From assembly GCA_037367355.1 (NCBI GenBank), contig CM074703.1:1736001-1800000 (forward strand): a DNA stretch of 64,000 bases, read 5' to 3'. This document shows positions 36,187-61,704 of the stretch, piece after piece. The DNA comes from Neoscytalidium dimidiatum. Its lineage: Eukaryota > Ascomycota > Dothideomycetes > Botryosphaeriales > Botryosphaeriaceae. Within the stretch, counting starts at the first letter, position 1. Every line of letters begins with the position of its first letter. Under the pieces are notes generated by a model. The model was not told the DNA's origin and made no database searches. It saw nothing but the letters and a program-made list of their open reading frames with translations. The position numbers and the translations under genes were made by a program.

Positions 36187-36291
36187 TGGTCACTACGAGG
36201 GTCGAACTCGCGACCTTGGCGTCAACTCTTGAGTCCTCTGGGAGGACTGCCAATATTAGCACCACGCTCTAACCAACTGAGCTAAGCGACC
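36187..36291 (-). tRNA. tRNA-Ile(AAU) with a 31-nt intron
   Basis: The minus strand folds into a complete cloverleaf: acceptor GGTCGCT/AGTGACC with one G-U, D-arm GCTC/GAGC, anticodon stem TGGTG/CGCCA with loop CTAATAA (anticodon AAT, read as AAU or inosine), and T-arm GCGAG/CTCGT around TTCGACC. A 31-nt intron lies at the canonical site after position 37. The discriminator is A, and CCA is not encoded. Runs of T4 (36170-36173) and T5 (36140-36144) on the transcribed strand can end Pol III transcription. Confidence 0.93.
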
Positions 36292-53828: not shown

Positions 53829-56592
53829 ATGGCGTCCTCGCGGATATTCATCAGGAATCTGCCCCCAACACTCACAGAGGGAGACTTCCGCAAACATTTT
53901 GCCCAACGCGATCCTGTCACAGACGCGAAATTGCTGGCAAATCGCCGCATTGGCTATGTCGGCTACAAAACCCCAGAGGCCGCTGAGAAGGCAGTCAAGT
54001 ATTTCAACAAGACATTCATCCGGATGTCAAGAATAGGCGTCGAGTTAGCCCGACCCGTAAGACCTGCCTCTCATCTCCGCACAAGATTTTGCTAACTGCG
54101 GACCTTTAGGTCGACGAAGCGCCACAGCCTAAAAATCGCAAGCGCGCTCCTACTGCAGCCCCGCCCGTAGTAGATAACGAGTCGAAGGGGCCAAAGCCAG
54201 CGGCGGAGAACTCCCTGAAGCGCAAGAGAGGTGTCGATGAAGCTGTCGAGGCCGATCCTAAGCTCAAGGAGTTCTTAGAGGTCATGAAGCCGGCTTCCAA
54301 GAACAAAACGTGGGCGAATGGTGACTTGCAAGTTGACCAGTCAGCTGCAACAGACAACTCGCCCAACGTAGAGTCCATCCCTGTCGCTGAAGCTGACAGC
54401 GATGACGAGTATCAAACGGTTCAGAAGAAGCGCAAACGTTCTGAGTCGATACCCGCGGCTGAAACCTCTGATTTCACCACAACAGCCACGCAGTCACCGG
54501 GCGAGAACATGCCCGAGGGCGAGCATGCGGAAGAGGATGTTGAGCCCGAAACGGAGACCCAGCCCTTGTCAGACCTTGATTGGTTGCGTTCCAGGACGAA
54601 AAGAACGTTGGAGGTGGATGACGATGAGGAGGAGGAACTTGCACATCGTCCCAAGGTCACGAAAAATGAAAATTCGAGTGCCTCGGCAGATGAGAAGCCC
54701 GGACCGGAAGACGACATCCAACCATCAGTTACAGGTGGCGGTGCAGCCACAGAGAAAACCGAAACCCAGGTCAACTCTGAAATCGAAAGTATCCGCCAGA
54801 ATGGTCGCCTGTTCCTGCGGAATTTGCCTTACGATGTTTCGGAAGATGATCTGCGTGACCATTTTAATTCTTTCGGGTCCCTGCAAGAGGTAAGATTCTA
54901 ACATTCTTTCTTCCCTGCGTGCCTCTTTCCATGATGAACACCAGATAGGGACAACCGATGCAATGCATCTGAGGATAACCCTGGGAGAGTATTTTAGTAG
55001 ATGCTTCTCTTCTCTGAACAGTCACAAGGCTTTCATCTGAATATTCTCATATTGAGACCAGACCTGTGGATGCTAATATAACATCATAGGTACACGTCCC
55101 GCTCGACTCCAAAACTGGGAAAGGGAAAGGCTTTGCCTATGTACTCTTTGAGGAACCTGATGATGCCATCCGGGCTTATGAACAGCTTGACGGCAGGATT
55201 TTCCAGGGTCGCCTCCTGCATATCCTTCCTGCTGCTGCAAAACGGGAGAACAAACTTGACGAATTCGCTATCTCTAAGTTACCGATTAAGCAGCAGAAAC
55301 GTATTCAACAAAAGGCGCAAGCGGCGACTTCGACATTCAATTGGAACTCCTTGTACATGAATGCCGATGCTGTCATTGCATCCGTTGCCGATCGTCTGGG
55401 TGTCAGCAAGTCCGACGTGCTTGATCCTACTTCTTCGGATGCAGCTGTAAAGCAAGCCCATGCGGAAACGCATATCATCCAAGAGACAAAGGCGTACTTT
55501 ACGCAAAATGGTGTAGACCTGGATGCCTTCAAGCACAAGGCCAGAGGAGACACTGCCATTTTGGTGAAGAATTTCTCGTACGGCACCAAGCCTGACGAGT
55601 TGAAGAAGATGTTCGAGGAGCACGGCACGGTCACTCGTTTCCTCATGCCTCCTAGTGGAACTATTGCGATTGTGGAGTTCGCTCAGGCTCCCCAGGCTCG
55701 GTCTGCTTTTGCTTCGCTCGCGTACCGGAAAATCAAAGACTCGATCCTCTTCCTGGAGAAGGCTCCGAAAGATCTTTTCAAGGAAGGCGTTACACCACAG
55801 GCAGCACTCGCCACTGTTGCCTATACGGCTGAAGGGAAGGCTAAATTGGCCGCGTCGGACTTACTTGCGAAGGAGGCTTCCTCCGAGCAGGTTGACACCT
55901 CGACTCTTTACGTCCGGAACCTGAACTTCTCTACGACCACTCAGCGTCTGACGGAGGTGTTCAAGCCTCTTGATGGCTTCGTGTCTGCGCGAGTGAAGAC
56001 GAAGACAGATCCGAAGAAGCCTGGTCAGGTTCTGAGCATGGGCTTCGGTTTCCTTGAGTTCCGGACCAAGGAGCAAGCCCAAGCTGCCCTCGCCGCCATG
56101 GACGGCTACAATCTCGATGGTTACAAGCTGACGATCAAGGCGTCCAACAAAGGTCTTGATGCTGCTGAAGAGCGGCGTAAAGAGGACAAGGCAAAGAAGG
56201 CAGCAGGTAGGCAGACCAAGATCATCATCAAGAACTTGCCGTTCGAGGCTACCAAGAAGGACGTACGTGCCTTATTTGGAGCCTACGGGCAGCTCCGTTC
56301 AGTGCGCGTACCTAAGAAATTCGACGCCTCAGCGAGGGGTTTCGCGTTTGCCGACTTCACTACTCCTCGCGAGGCGGAGAACGCCATGGACGCGCTGCGG
56401 AGTACCCACTTGCTTGGTCGCAAATTGGTCCTGGATTTCGCTGCCGAAGATCCAGAGGACGCTGAAGAAGAGATTGCCAAGATGCAGAAGAAAGTTGGCA
56501 CGCAAGTCAACAAAGTCGCCCTGCAAAAGCTTACGGGGGCCGGAAGAAAGAAATTTAATGTCGCAGGCACCGATGAGCTCGAAGAAGCTTAA
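53829..56592 (+). CDS. MRD1: Multiple RNA-binding domain protein 1 (pre-rRNA processing)
   Basis: Three exons, 53829-54056, 54110-54889 and 55090-56592, give 836 residues. Five RRMs are visible: RRM1 at residues 1-76 (IFIRNLPPTL, RIGYVGYK), RRM2 at about 307-385 (LFLRNLPYDV, GKGFAYVLFEE) spanning intron 2, RRM3 at about 490-560 (ILVKNFSYGT), RRM4 at about 607-690 (LYVRNLNFST, GFGFLEF) and RRM5 at about 712-787 (IIIKNLPFEA, GFAFADF). Between RRM1 and RRM2 is an acidic, Lys-rich linker, and after RRM2 a conserved helical stretch (NWNSLYMNADAVIASVADRLG). Length and order match Mrd1/RBM19, a nucleolar U3-linked factor needed for cleavages that release 18S rRNA. The second intron is 200 nt, four times the local norm, and may host a small RNA. 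Confidence 0.93.
54926..55045 (+). ncRNA. Candidate box C/D snoRNA in MRD1 intron 2
   Basis: The 200-nt intron holds a perfect C box ATGATGA (54931-54937) and downstream CTGA elements at 54969-54972, 55014-55017 and 55037-55040 that could serve as D' and D boxes. Intron-hosted C/D snoRNAs in ribosome-biogenesis genes are common in eukaryotes. Against it, I find no clear terminal stem and have not identified a target. The boundaries are approximate. Confidence 0.25.
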
Positions 56593-60242: not shown

Positions 60243-61177
60243 AAGGGAGGAGGGTGTGATGGGGGAGTCTATGCGATTAGTTTGGTTTTCATTTTTTTTT
60301 TTCTTTTTTCGGTGGTGGAGATTATTTTCGGATGGTGGTTTGTTGTGGAGGCATGGATGGATGGATACCATGACGACGACTGACGAAAAGAGGAGGAAGA
60401 ACACTCGATTGAACGGGAAGGAAGAAAGCATGGACGCTCGCTGGCACATTCGCTGATCCTATCTGAAGCCTGGTCAAAGACTGACGTTTAGCCCCTCCGC
60501 TACAACTGTTTATTTATGCACACCTTTACCGACCTTTCCACTCGCTCTGGTGCTGTTGGCTTGGTCTCTTATATACCCCCCATCCGTCGACTTGGCTTGC
60601 GCCCCCGCCCAAATCGGAAAAAAAGTTACTCGTTGCGCGCGAAGTTTCCTTTCTACCTTACCGTTCGGCTTGTTTATCACTCACTTTTATTTTTTTTTTT
60701 TAAGTTGCAGCACCTTTTCATAGTAGGTAGCTTACTGGAACCCCCTAATTTGAGATATATGATTACTCGATGCCGTCACTGAATTGGTACTGTGTTGCCT
60801 GCGTGTCATGATTGCTCCATTTAATGTTGCTGATCCGTCCTCAGACGCGTCGCCTGCAGCCCTCAGCGGTTCGCCAAATAAAGAGTGAGGTCACAACGGA
60901 GATCACCCACCAGATATATAAATCAGAAAAGACGGTCTTTGGGCCATCTCACGTCAAGTCAGCTCTAGCTAGCACAGCACTCATACGGTCTCTCAAAGAA
61001 TCTCTCTAAGCATGTAGTGCATCACGAATGAGCAAAAGTTGAAGTGCCCCCGAGTCAAGAAGCCCGCGCGGTCCGCGGCTTTGCGTCCGCCCCACAAGCC
61101 CGCATCGTAGTGGCTCAGAAAGTGCAAAAAGAAAGGCTTGCTACCCAGTCTGAGACTGGAAAGGACGTCGAGTTCCT
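60243..61177. other. Spacer between the TEA gene and tRNA-Phe
   Basis: 935 nt with poly-T runs near 60293 and 60691 and no visible gene. A run of five T on the transcribed minus strand (61126-61130) lies about 50 nt past the tRNA-Phe end and could stop Pol III. Confidence 0.4.
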
Positions 61178-61213
61178 TGCAGCTTCTGTGGATCGAACAC
61201 AGTACCTCCAGAT

Positions 61214-61247
61214 ACCGCACAGATAGATTGCTGTTGGCTGAAGTGGA
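61214..61247 (-). other. Canonical 34-nt tRNA intron of tRNA-Phe
   Basis: Located after position 37. It contains CTTCAG, which can pair with the anticodon-loop CTGAAG to form the structure recognised by the tRNA-splicing endonuclease. Confidence 0.8.
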
Positions 61248-61254
61248 CTTCAGT

Positions 61255-61308
61255 CTGTTCCAATGTTAGTTGAGGACGGCGAGAGAAGGTGAGTCAAGGA
61301 CTACTAAC
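61255..61308 (-). other. Spliceosomal-type intron inside tRNA-Phe
   Basis: 54 nt inserted between nucleotides 30 and 31 of the anticodon stem. On the minus strand the left junction is CCAG|GTTAGT, a consensus branch site ACTAAC lies at 61265-61270 and the right junction is GAACAG|ACTG. Size and signals match the mRNA introns of this window (51-58 nt in LC8, MRD1, ATP20 and APH). The donor GTTAGT is also the exact complement of ACTAAC, so a hairpin is an alternative reading. Confidence 0.75.
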
Positions 61309-61338
61309 CTGGCGCTCTCCCAAGTGAGCTAAAGCTGC

Positions 61339-61704
61339 TGATTGGCTGATAGAGGCCTGAAAATGGTAATTGCATTTATGTTTCGGCTTAGGATCCCAGA
61401 AGCAAGCGTGAGAGTGAACGGTGCTAGCAATGCAATTTTTCATCCACAGTGGACGGACGATCTCGGCGAGAAAGCGGCCTTCCACGTGATTTCCCGACCA
61501 GCGCTATCTTATCGCACGCGTTTCAGCCTTCCCGCGTTTGAGCGCGCGCGCGCGGAATTATTTCGCGTCAATCAGCCCACCCCTCCCCCCCAACACCTGC
61601 TCTACATAGTATACCACCCAAATTCAGCCGTCCCATTGCACATCATCGAATTCCAAGGCCCACAAGACCGATCGAGGAGCTCTGATCACCACGCCTCCGC
61701 GACA
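61339..61704. promoter_or_regulatory. Upstream region of tRNA-Phe and the dsRBD gene
   Basis: A 366-nt spacer between divergent transcription units. A frame open from 61342 leads into the next gene but its composition is not coding-like before 61705. A pure GC alternation (GCGCGCGCGCG) lies near 61542-61555. Confidence 0.4.

Follow-up and report, generated by a model that had tools for sequence, protein, structure and literature searches.

The tRNA-Phe(GAA) gene at positions 61178-61338 (minus strand) of the 64,000-nucleotide stretch of the Neoscytalidium dimidiatum genome analysed here (the window) contains the usual tRNA intron of 34 nt at position 37/38 and, at 30/31, a 54-nt insert of the form GT...ACTAAC...CAG. 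Judged from the sequence of this gene and its relatives, the 54-nt segment is very likely a U2-type spliceosomal intron in a Pol III tRNA gene, and the spliceosome would remove it before the tRNA endonuclease takes out the canonical intron. GT-AG inserts of 51-64 nt were found in at least nine tRNA genes of this one fungal genome, which belong to five families and are interrupted at five positions, and the mRNA-splicing machinery is probably needed for making some tRNAs of this fungus. By its defining sequence features the insert appears to be an ordinary U2-type intron, and the novelty would lie in its tRNA host. To our knowledge, mRNA-type introns have not been reported before in nuclear tRNA genes. 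No description of spliceosomal introns in nuclear tRNA genes was found among the matches listed from titles and opening abstracts of the open-access literature (subscription papers and preprints fall outside this scope), nor in the available portions of PMC13149111, PMC13130702, PMC4022394, PMC4479816, PMC5499181 and PMC6461891, and the first of these classes tRNA splicing as spliceosome-independent.

The gene is 161 nt long (30 + 54 insert + 7 + 34 canonical intron + 36). Its parts and its trailer are listed below, where C2 and C5 stand for the contigs on which two sister genes lie; the window itself lies on contig C9.

61309..61338, minus strand: exon 1, positions 1-30, with the 5' strand of the acceptor stem, the D arm / A box and the first bases of the anticodon stem; ends in CCAG; the same in all five tRNA-Phe genes found
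61255..61308, minus strand: putative 54-nt spliceosomal-type intron at 30/31, GTTAGT...ACTAAC...AACAG; two paralogues are without it
61303..61308, minus strand: putative 5' splice site GTTAGT; GTCAGT (C2) and GTAAGC (C5) stand at the same site in paralogues
61265..61269, minus strand: putative branch-site motif CTAAC, with the branch A at 61266, 11 nt before the intron end; CTAAC is also present in the C2 and C5 paralogues
61255..61257, minus strand: putative 3' splice site CAG, read from the sequence and from paralogue comparison
61248..61254, minus strand: exon 2, ACTGAAG (7 nt), positions 31 to 37, anticodon GAA
61214..61247, minus strand: canonical tRNA intron at 37/38, 34 nt; its ACTTCAG pairs with the anticodon loop CTGAAGT
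61178..61213, minus strand: exon 3, positions 38 to 73, with the T arm / B box GTTCGATCC; TCTGG...GCTGCA is the same in all five tRNA-Phe genes found
61145..61159, minus strand: trailer hairpin CCAGTCTCAGACTGG, recognisable at all five tRNA-Phe loci, imperfect in C2
61126..61130, minus strand: TTTTT, a probable Pol III terminator by sequence reading, 48 nt after the tRNA

Read on the minus strand, the insert is GTTAGT...CAACTAACATTGGAACAG. When both segments were removed, the remaining 73-nt RNA gave a four-arm cloverleaf as its minimum-energy fold (-25.4 kcal/mol), which bears out the original prediction that the cloverleaf is complete once 54 nt at 30/31 and 34 nt after position 37 are taken out and that the lengths add up. 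The four arms also formed when only the 54 nt were removed and the 34-nt intron was kept (-34.9 kcal/mol), and the intron then paired with the anticodon loop. It had further been predicted that the insert breaks the tRNA fold. With the insert kept, the normal D and anticodon stems were indeed missing from the minimum-energy fold; this fold is a weak test, because the spliced C2 gene and both insert-free tRNA-Phe genes (canonical intron in) were also without the D arm. Once the 54 nt were taken out, ARAGORN named the window gene tRNA-Phe(GAA) and placed a 34-nt intron in it. With the 54 nt kept it made no call under default settings and, when long introns were allowed, a tRNA-Thr(AGT) with an 88-nt intron. 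The Rfam tRNA model gave no match at this gene.

Each half of the tRNA-Phe exons was searched with up to three mismatches in the genome assembly of the window (43.76 Mb, 40 contigs). Both searches returned the same five loci with zero mismatches, the exons being identical throughout. In three of the five genes an insert lies between CCAG and ACTGAAG (61 nt in C2, 54 nt in C5 and 54 nt in the window), and the genes on C4 and elsewhere on C9 have the empty site, CCAGACTGAAG, uninterrupted. The three inserts start with GTCAGT (C2), GTAAGC (C5) and GTTAGT (window), have CACTAAC, CACTAAC and AACTAAC as their branch regions, and end with GCAG, ACAG and ACAG, in the same order. In the stretches between these signals, the window insert resembles those of C2 and C5 no better than shuffled sequence does (0.50 and 0.47 of shuffles scored at least as high as the real comparison), and C2 and C5 are slightly similar to each other (0.007 of shuffles were as good). 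GTNAGY, CTAAC and CAG have still been kept in the three otherwise near-unrelated inserts, as expected with splicing under selection. With the inserts removed, all three interrupted genes were named Phe(GAA) by ARAGORN; with the inserts kept and long introns allowed, the C2 and C5 sister genes were misnamed tRNA-Arg(GCG). The element TCAGCCAATCA (window 61339-61349, minus strand) directly abuts the 5' end of the window and C5 genes and lies 4 nt upstream of the C2 gene, and it is absent from the 60 nt upstream of both intron-less tRNA-Phe genes. This common upstream element suggests that the three interrupted genes descend from one interrupted gene. In the trailers of all five loci, CCTT is followed by the hairpin CCAGTCTCAGACTGG or a variant of it before the T run; the second C9 gene has a paired change in this hairpin (CCAATCTCAGATTGG), and the C2 copy is imperfect. 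This hairpin is perhaps a Pol III trailer element.

Comparable inserts were found in four other tRNA families, for which the census consisted of pattern searches of the one genome, so that nine genes is a lower bound. In Pro(AGG), two genes on C11 read ...TCTAGTGGTATG, then an insert of 64 nt from GTAAGT to ATAG, then ATTCTCGCTTAGG..., and a third gene, on C3, was found with the 3' half (up to three mismatches) and has a 54-nt insert GTGAGT...CTAAT...ACAG at the same site. The Pro(AGG) inserts thus all lie in the D stem between TATG and AT, with GTAAGT, GTAAGT and GTGAGT at the start, CTAAC, CTAAC and CTAAT as branch motif and ATAG, ATAG and ACAG at the end. Exactly the same three genes were returned when the interrupted 5' half was searched with up to two mismatches. 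When the Pro 5' half was searched across the assembly with any first anticodon base and up to three mismatches, no uninterrupted Pro(AGG) gene and no Pro(TGG) gene came up, and the only matches were two Pro(CGG) genes, in which the site TATG/AT is empty (one of them was read in part). The count of three interrupted genes out of three covers assembled genes that resemble these Pro halves, a very different Pro(AGG) sequence being beyond the reach of the search. Leu(CAG) has its insert at 25/26, where GGGAAGATGGCCGAGTGGTTATGGC is followed by 55 nt from GTAAGT through CTAAC to ATAG and then by GCTAGTTTCAGG..., and its 3' end has a single match in the genome (up to two mismatches), which is the interrupted gene itself. 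In Arg(CCG), at 26/27, ...GGTAAGGCG is followed by 56 nt from GTACGT through CTAAT to CGCAG and then by TTGCTTTCCGG...; in Ala(CGC) the insert is in the D loop, where 51 nt from GTTAGT through CTAAT to TTAG stand between ...GGTCTAG and GGGTATG.... The positions in Leu(CAG), Arg(CCG) and Ala(CGC) were numbered by eye.

A canonical 37/38 intron is also present in all nine interrupted genes; that of Pro(AGG) is 16 nt long at the boundary preferred by ARAGORN. The spliced forms of Pro(AGG), Arg(CCG) and Ala(CGC) were named as such by ARAGORN, and the spliced Leu form was miscalled Gly(CCC), although on inspection by eye its arms fit Leu(CAG). Neither spliced Pro and Ala nor the spliced C2 Phe gene shows a full cloverleaf in its minimum-energy fold, and the same is true of the insert-free Phe precursors; ARAGORN nevertheless accepts the spliced Pro and Ala forms. 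The inserts with conserved signals despite divergence, the empty sites in paralogues and the four further families all argue for the original prediction that the segment is an mRNA-type intron in a tRNA gene.

All nine inserts start with GTNNGY, end with YAG and measure 51-64 nt. Each also has a CTAAY whose branch A stands 10-14 nt from the 3' end, a motif through which five of the nine genes came to light. For each of the seven inserts tested (Arg and Ala were left out), the combination GTNAGY...CTAAY...YAG appeared in none of 400,000 base shuffles. On both strands of the 64-kb window the strict intron signal occurred twice, whereas 20 Markov controls averaged 0.5 (range 0-2); one match is the tRNA-Phe insert and the other, at 54044, lies upstream of an MRD1 homologue, and the count alone lacks significance. 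The diverged inserts at the same site in two other Phe genes, together with the two empty sites, provide the stronger evidence. That the signals and size of the insert are those of the mRNA introns of this genome had also been predicted, and the introns of two protein genes in the window agree with it. The HetC homologue has three introns (GTAAGT...GCTAAT...ACAG, GTACGT...GCTGAC...TCAG and GTATGT...CTGAT...CCAG) and the single intron of the MRD1 homologue measures about 200 nt (GTAAGA...GCTAAT...ATAG). They were placed by protein alignment with ends set at GT/AG, HetC being aligned with Lasiodiplodia, Diplodia, Saccharata and Sporormia. The mRNA introns of these two genes are thus about 49-200 nt long with GTAnG, CTRAY and YAG, and the tRNA inserts are alike in style. 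The best named matches of the HetC homologue are from Lasiodiplodia theobromae (85%) and Diplodia seriata (80%), both Botryosphaeriaceae, and unnamed proteins match at 88-89%. Within the intron of about 200 nt of the MRD1 homologue lies a C/D snoRNA of the family Afu_335 (window 54927-55019, plus strand). The motif ACATC stands at most 14 nt upstream of the branch site in four of the nine tRNA inserts (L003, L071, L072 and L092) and in one of 35 intron-like matches in 208 kb, this one being the C5 Phe insert; since five of the 35 matches come from tRNA inserts, none of the other 30 has it. This post hoc observation may hint at a common origin of the inserts.

How the genes were found determines which of these features count as independent evidence. 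The window gene was the find of the original prediction, and exon halves alone led to two further Phe genes (C2 and C5) and to the Pro gene on C3; all four of these inserts, found without the use of splice signals, carry GT, CTAAY and AG. The two Pro genes on C11 and the Leu, Arg and Ala genes were found through CTAAC or CTAAT, and in these five the branch motif therefore does not count as independent evidence, which comes instead from the spacing and from the GT and AG where insert and tRNA meet. Scanning for CTAAC 46-76 nt ahead of a B box gave 57 matches, six of which are interrupted tRNAs (three Phe, two Pro(AGG) and Leu(CAG)). A second CTAAC scan gave 58 matches and no interrupted tRNA by eye, and a CTGAC scan gave 123, of which the 100 listed yielded no further interrupted tRNA by eye, being ordinary tRNAs preceded by CTGAC. 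When CTAAT was combined with a stricter B box, the scan gave four matches, namely Arg(CCG), Ala(CGC) and two tRNA-Gly genes, which on reading by eye were rejected as ordinary genes with a canonical intron. Controls with the reversed patterns gave 180, 168, 167 and 6 matches and exceeded the real pattern in all four scans (57, 58, 123 and 4); the scans alone therefore prove nothing, and each gene was read individually. Thirty matches of the 57-match CTAAC scan were run through ARAGORN, five of the 57 (three of these five being among the thirty) and one of the 58 were fetched, read and rejected as interrupted tRNAs, and the remaining matches of the CTAAC scans were judged by eye on their first 80 letters. 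Twelve stretches read by eye, eleven of the 63 Rfam tRNA matches (span 90-157 nt) and one Pro(CGG) locus, had no second insert. Searches for relatives in viral_contigs and genome_contigs, two collections where fungi would not be expected, gave no hits.

The interrupted genes retain the features of Pol III genes. Each of the nine has a stretch of four or more T 3-49 nt downstream. Direct reading shows a B box in all nine and an unbroken A box in eight, the exception being Ala(CGC), where the insert splits the A box. TTTT is absent from all nine inserts, which fits Pol III transcription, though weakly (P 0.11 by shuffling); in Ala(CGC), TTTT is present in the exon. The features of a functional tRNA gene, i.e. 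A box, B box, T run and a cloverleaf once spliced, were accordingly found, with the exceptions of Leu, which is miscalled Gly, and of Ala with its split A box.

Transcription of the gene, the action of the spliceosome and the order of the two splicing steps are what we infer from these data. Pol III, directed by the internal A and B boxes, would transcribe the entire gene up to the T run. The spliceosome would then recognise the short intron (GT / CTAAY / YAG) by intron definition and excise the 54-nt segment as a lariat, whereupon the tRNA body could fold and its ends be trimmed. Finally, the endonuclease and the ligase would cut out the canonical 37/38 intron and join the exons around it. 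The spliceosome is placed first because the Sen complex is thought to take its measure from the body of the tRNA (PMC4090602), and the insert disrupts that body until it is removed.

The inserts share with the U2-type introns of fungal mRNAs the GT-AG ends, CTAAY 10-14 nt before the 3' end and the length of 51-64 nt; unlike mRNA introns, they lie in a host with an internal Pol III promoter, an internal exon of down to 7 nt (Phe) and no reading frame. The U6 snRNA genes of some fungi carry mRNA-type introns, and these are likewise spliceosomal introns in a Pol III transcript. U6 is a component of the spliceosome, whereas tRNAs are not, and the precursors here would also have to pass through a second splicing system, the tRNA endonuclease and ligase. 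The canonical 37/38 introns are present in the same genes and show anticodon-intron pairing in Phe and, by eye, in Leu; the inserts differ from them in their position, in their consensus-driven boundaries and in their presumed independence of the mature fold. The statement of the original prediction that nuclear tRNA introns are known only at 37/38 was too strong, since the nuclear tRNAs of Cyanidioschyzon merolae and the tRNAs of algal nucleomorphs have others (PMC4090602, also for what follows on them). The non-canonical introns of archaea, C. merolae and nucleomorphs resemble the inserts in lying at 30/31 and in the D arm, and a gene may have two of them. Those of C. merolae and archaea depend on bulge-helix-bulge (BHB) motifs, whereas the seven inserts examined for it here are without the full motif. 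The nucleomorph tRNA-Phe(GAA) of Guillardia theta has two introns, the non-canonical introns of G. theta being 3-24 nt long. The word spliceosome does not occur in PMC4090602.

Several other readings have to be weighed against a spliceosomal intron in a Pol III gene; they are partly compatible with one another, and the likelihoods given to them need not add up to certainty. The nearest one, which is compatible with the preferred reading, keeps the spliceosome and lets it act on Pol II read-through transcripts of the tRNA loci. Capped Pol II transcripts are the usual substrates of the spliceosome, Pol III transcripts are without the cap and the Pol II tail, both of which aid spliceosome recruitment, and the A box of Ala(CGC) is split; we nevertheless regard this reading as unlikely in view of the B box and the T run 3-49 nt downstream in all nine genes and the unbroken A box in eight. 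It is rather improbable that the interrupted copies are pseudogenes, that is, dead tRNA genes that took up insertions and whose task falls to intact genes. For Phe, two intact genes exist and could provide the tRNA in place of the window gene, and eukaryotic tRNA genes with short D- or T-arm insertions, mostly one of many synonymous genes, are supposed to be pseudogenes (Yoshihisa 2014, PMC4090602). However, all five Phe genes found agree fully in their exons, whereas the inserts have diverged almost to randomness, and GT, CTAAY and AG are kept in all four inserts found without splice signals. In addition, the sole Leu(CAG) 3' end found belongs to the interrupted gene and all three Pro(AGG) genes found are interrupted; as the searches turned up no intact Pro(AGG) gene, it is difficult to explain the interrupted genes in general as pseudogenes. 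The original prediction had named a silent locus beside intact genes that supply all tRNA-Phe as the mark of a pseudogene. For Phe half of this was found, as two uninterrupted genes exist, and for Pro(AGG), with its three interrupted genes out of three, it does not hold.

Very improbable, in our estimate, is that the inserts are non-canonical introns of the archaeal or red-algal type, which the tRNA endonuclease would cleave at BHB motifs. Archaea have introns both at 30/31 and in the D arm, and C. merolae and nucleomorphs have non-canonical ones, those in the nuclear tRNAs of C. merolae being thought to be cut in this way; outside red algae and nucleomorphs, non-canonical insertions in eukaryotes are treated as rare and mostly as pseudogenes (PMC4090602). 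In two of the three Phe inserts a central helix with four of four pairs forms between intron bases 2-5 and exon bases, a pairing that is due in part to the complementarity between the 5' splice-site consensus and CTGA. Against this, the BHB arrangement of a 4-bp central helix between two 3-nt bulges, with outer and inner helices, is complete in none of the seven inserts examined in a fixed-register test (Arg and Ala were left out): the inner helix has none of three pairs in the three Phe inserts and the Leu insert, and the Pro inserts have two to three of four central, two of three outer and one to two of three inner pairs. BHB cleavage also leaves GT, CTAAY and AG in nine of nine inserts at five positions unexplained. 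The sequence also permits the fold of a tRNA with a single intron and another identity, namely the tRNA-Thr(AGT) with one 88-nt intron called by ARAGORN. This identity is hardly credible: the same program makes Arg(GCG) of the sister genes though these match two plain tRNA-Phe(GAA) genes in all their exons, intron-less Thr(AGT) genes exist elsewhere in the genome (L013-L015), and the ACTGAAG piece is kept along with its pairing to the canonical intron. Self-splicing group I or II introns were rejected, as the inserts measure 51-64 nt and a ribozyme core hundreds of nucleotides, and the Rfam intron families gave no match at gathering score within the window.

If the preferred reading of spliceosomal introns in Pol III tRNA genes is true, the spliceosome acts on Pol III tRNA precursors efficiently enough for translation, as at least one isoacceptor is without an intact gene among those found. 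On the evidence of the genes recovered, it is likely that the spliceosome is obligatory in tRNA maturation here: Pro(AGG), and perhaps Leu(CAG), Arg(CCG) and Ala(CGC), would exist only as genes with U2-type introns, so that decoding of their codons would need mRNA-type splicing followed by endonuclease splicing, and the inserts would have been gained several times independently across the families. tRNA splicing and mRNA splicing are usually taught as separate systems, and these genes would offer a natural test of the extent to which splicing relies on the cap and on the Pol II tail. They would also offer a natural test of intron gain, because the tRNA fold pins each insertion site to the base and sister genes with empty sites exist. 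On the unspliced sequences of the nine genes ARAGORN gave a wrong anticodon in seven and a wrong intron placement in the other two; as all nine are misread, more such genes may be hidden in public genomes.

Some further tRNA genes were noted along the way. The window has another tRNA gene at 36187-36291 (minus strand) with one canonical intron, which reads by eye as Ile(AAT) and was called Asn(ATT) with a 31-nt intron by ARAGORN. A tRNA-Ser(GCT) gene (L080, C10:2020460-2020670) has a 76-nt intron at the canonical position. On contig C40, mitochondrial-type tRNAs recur at an offset of about 176,850-176,910 bases, as if this contig consisted of two tandem copies of a large mitochondrial genome.
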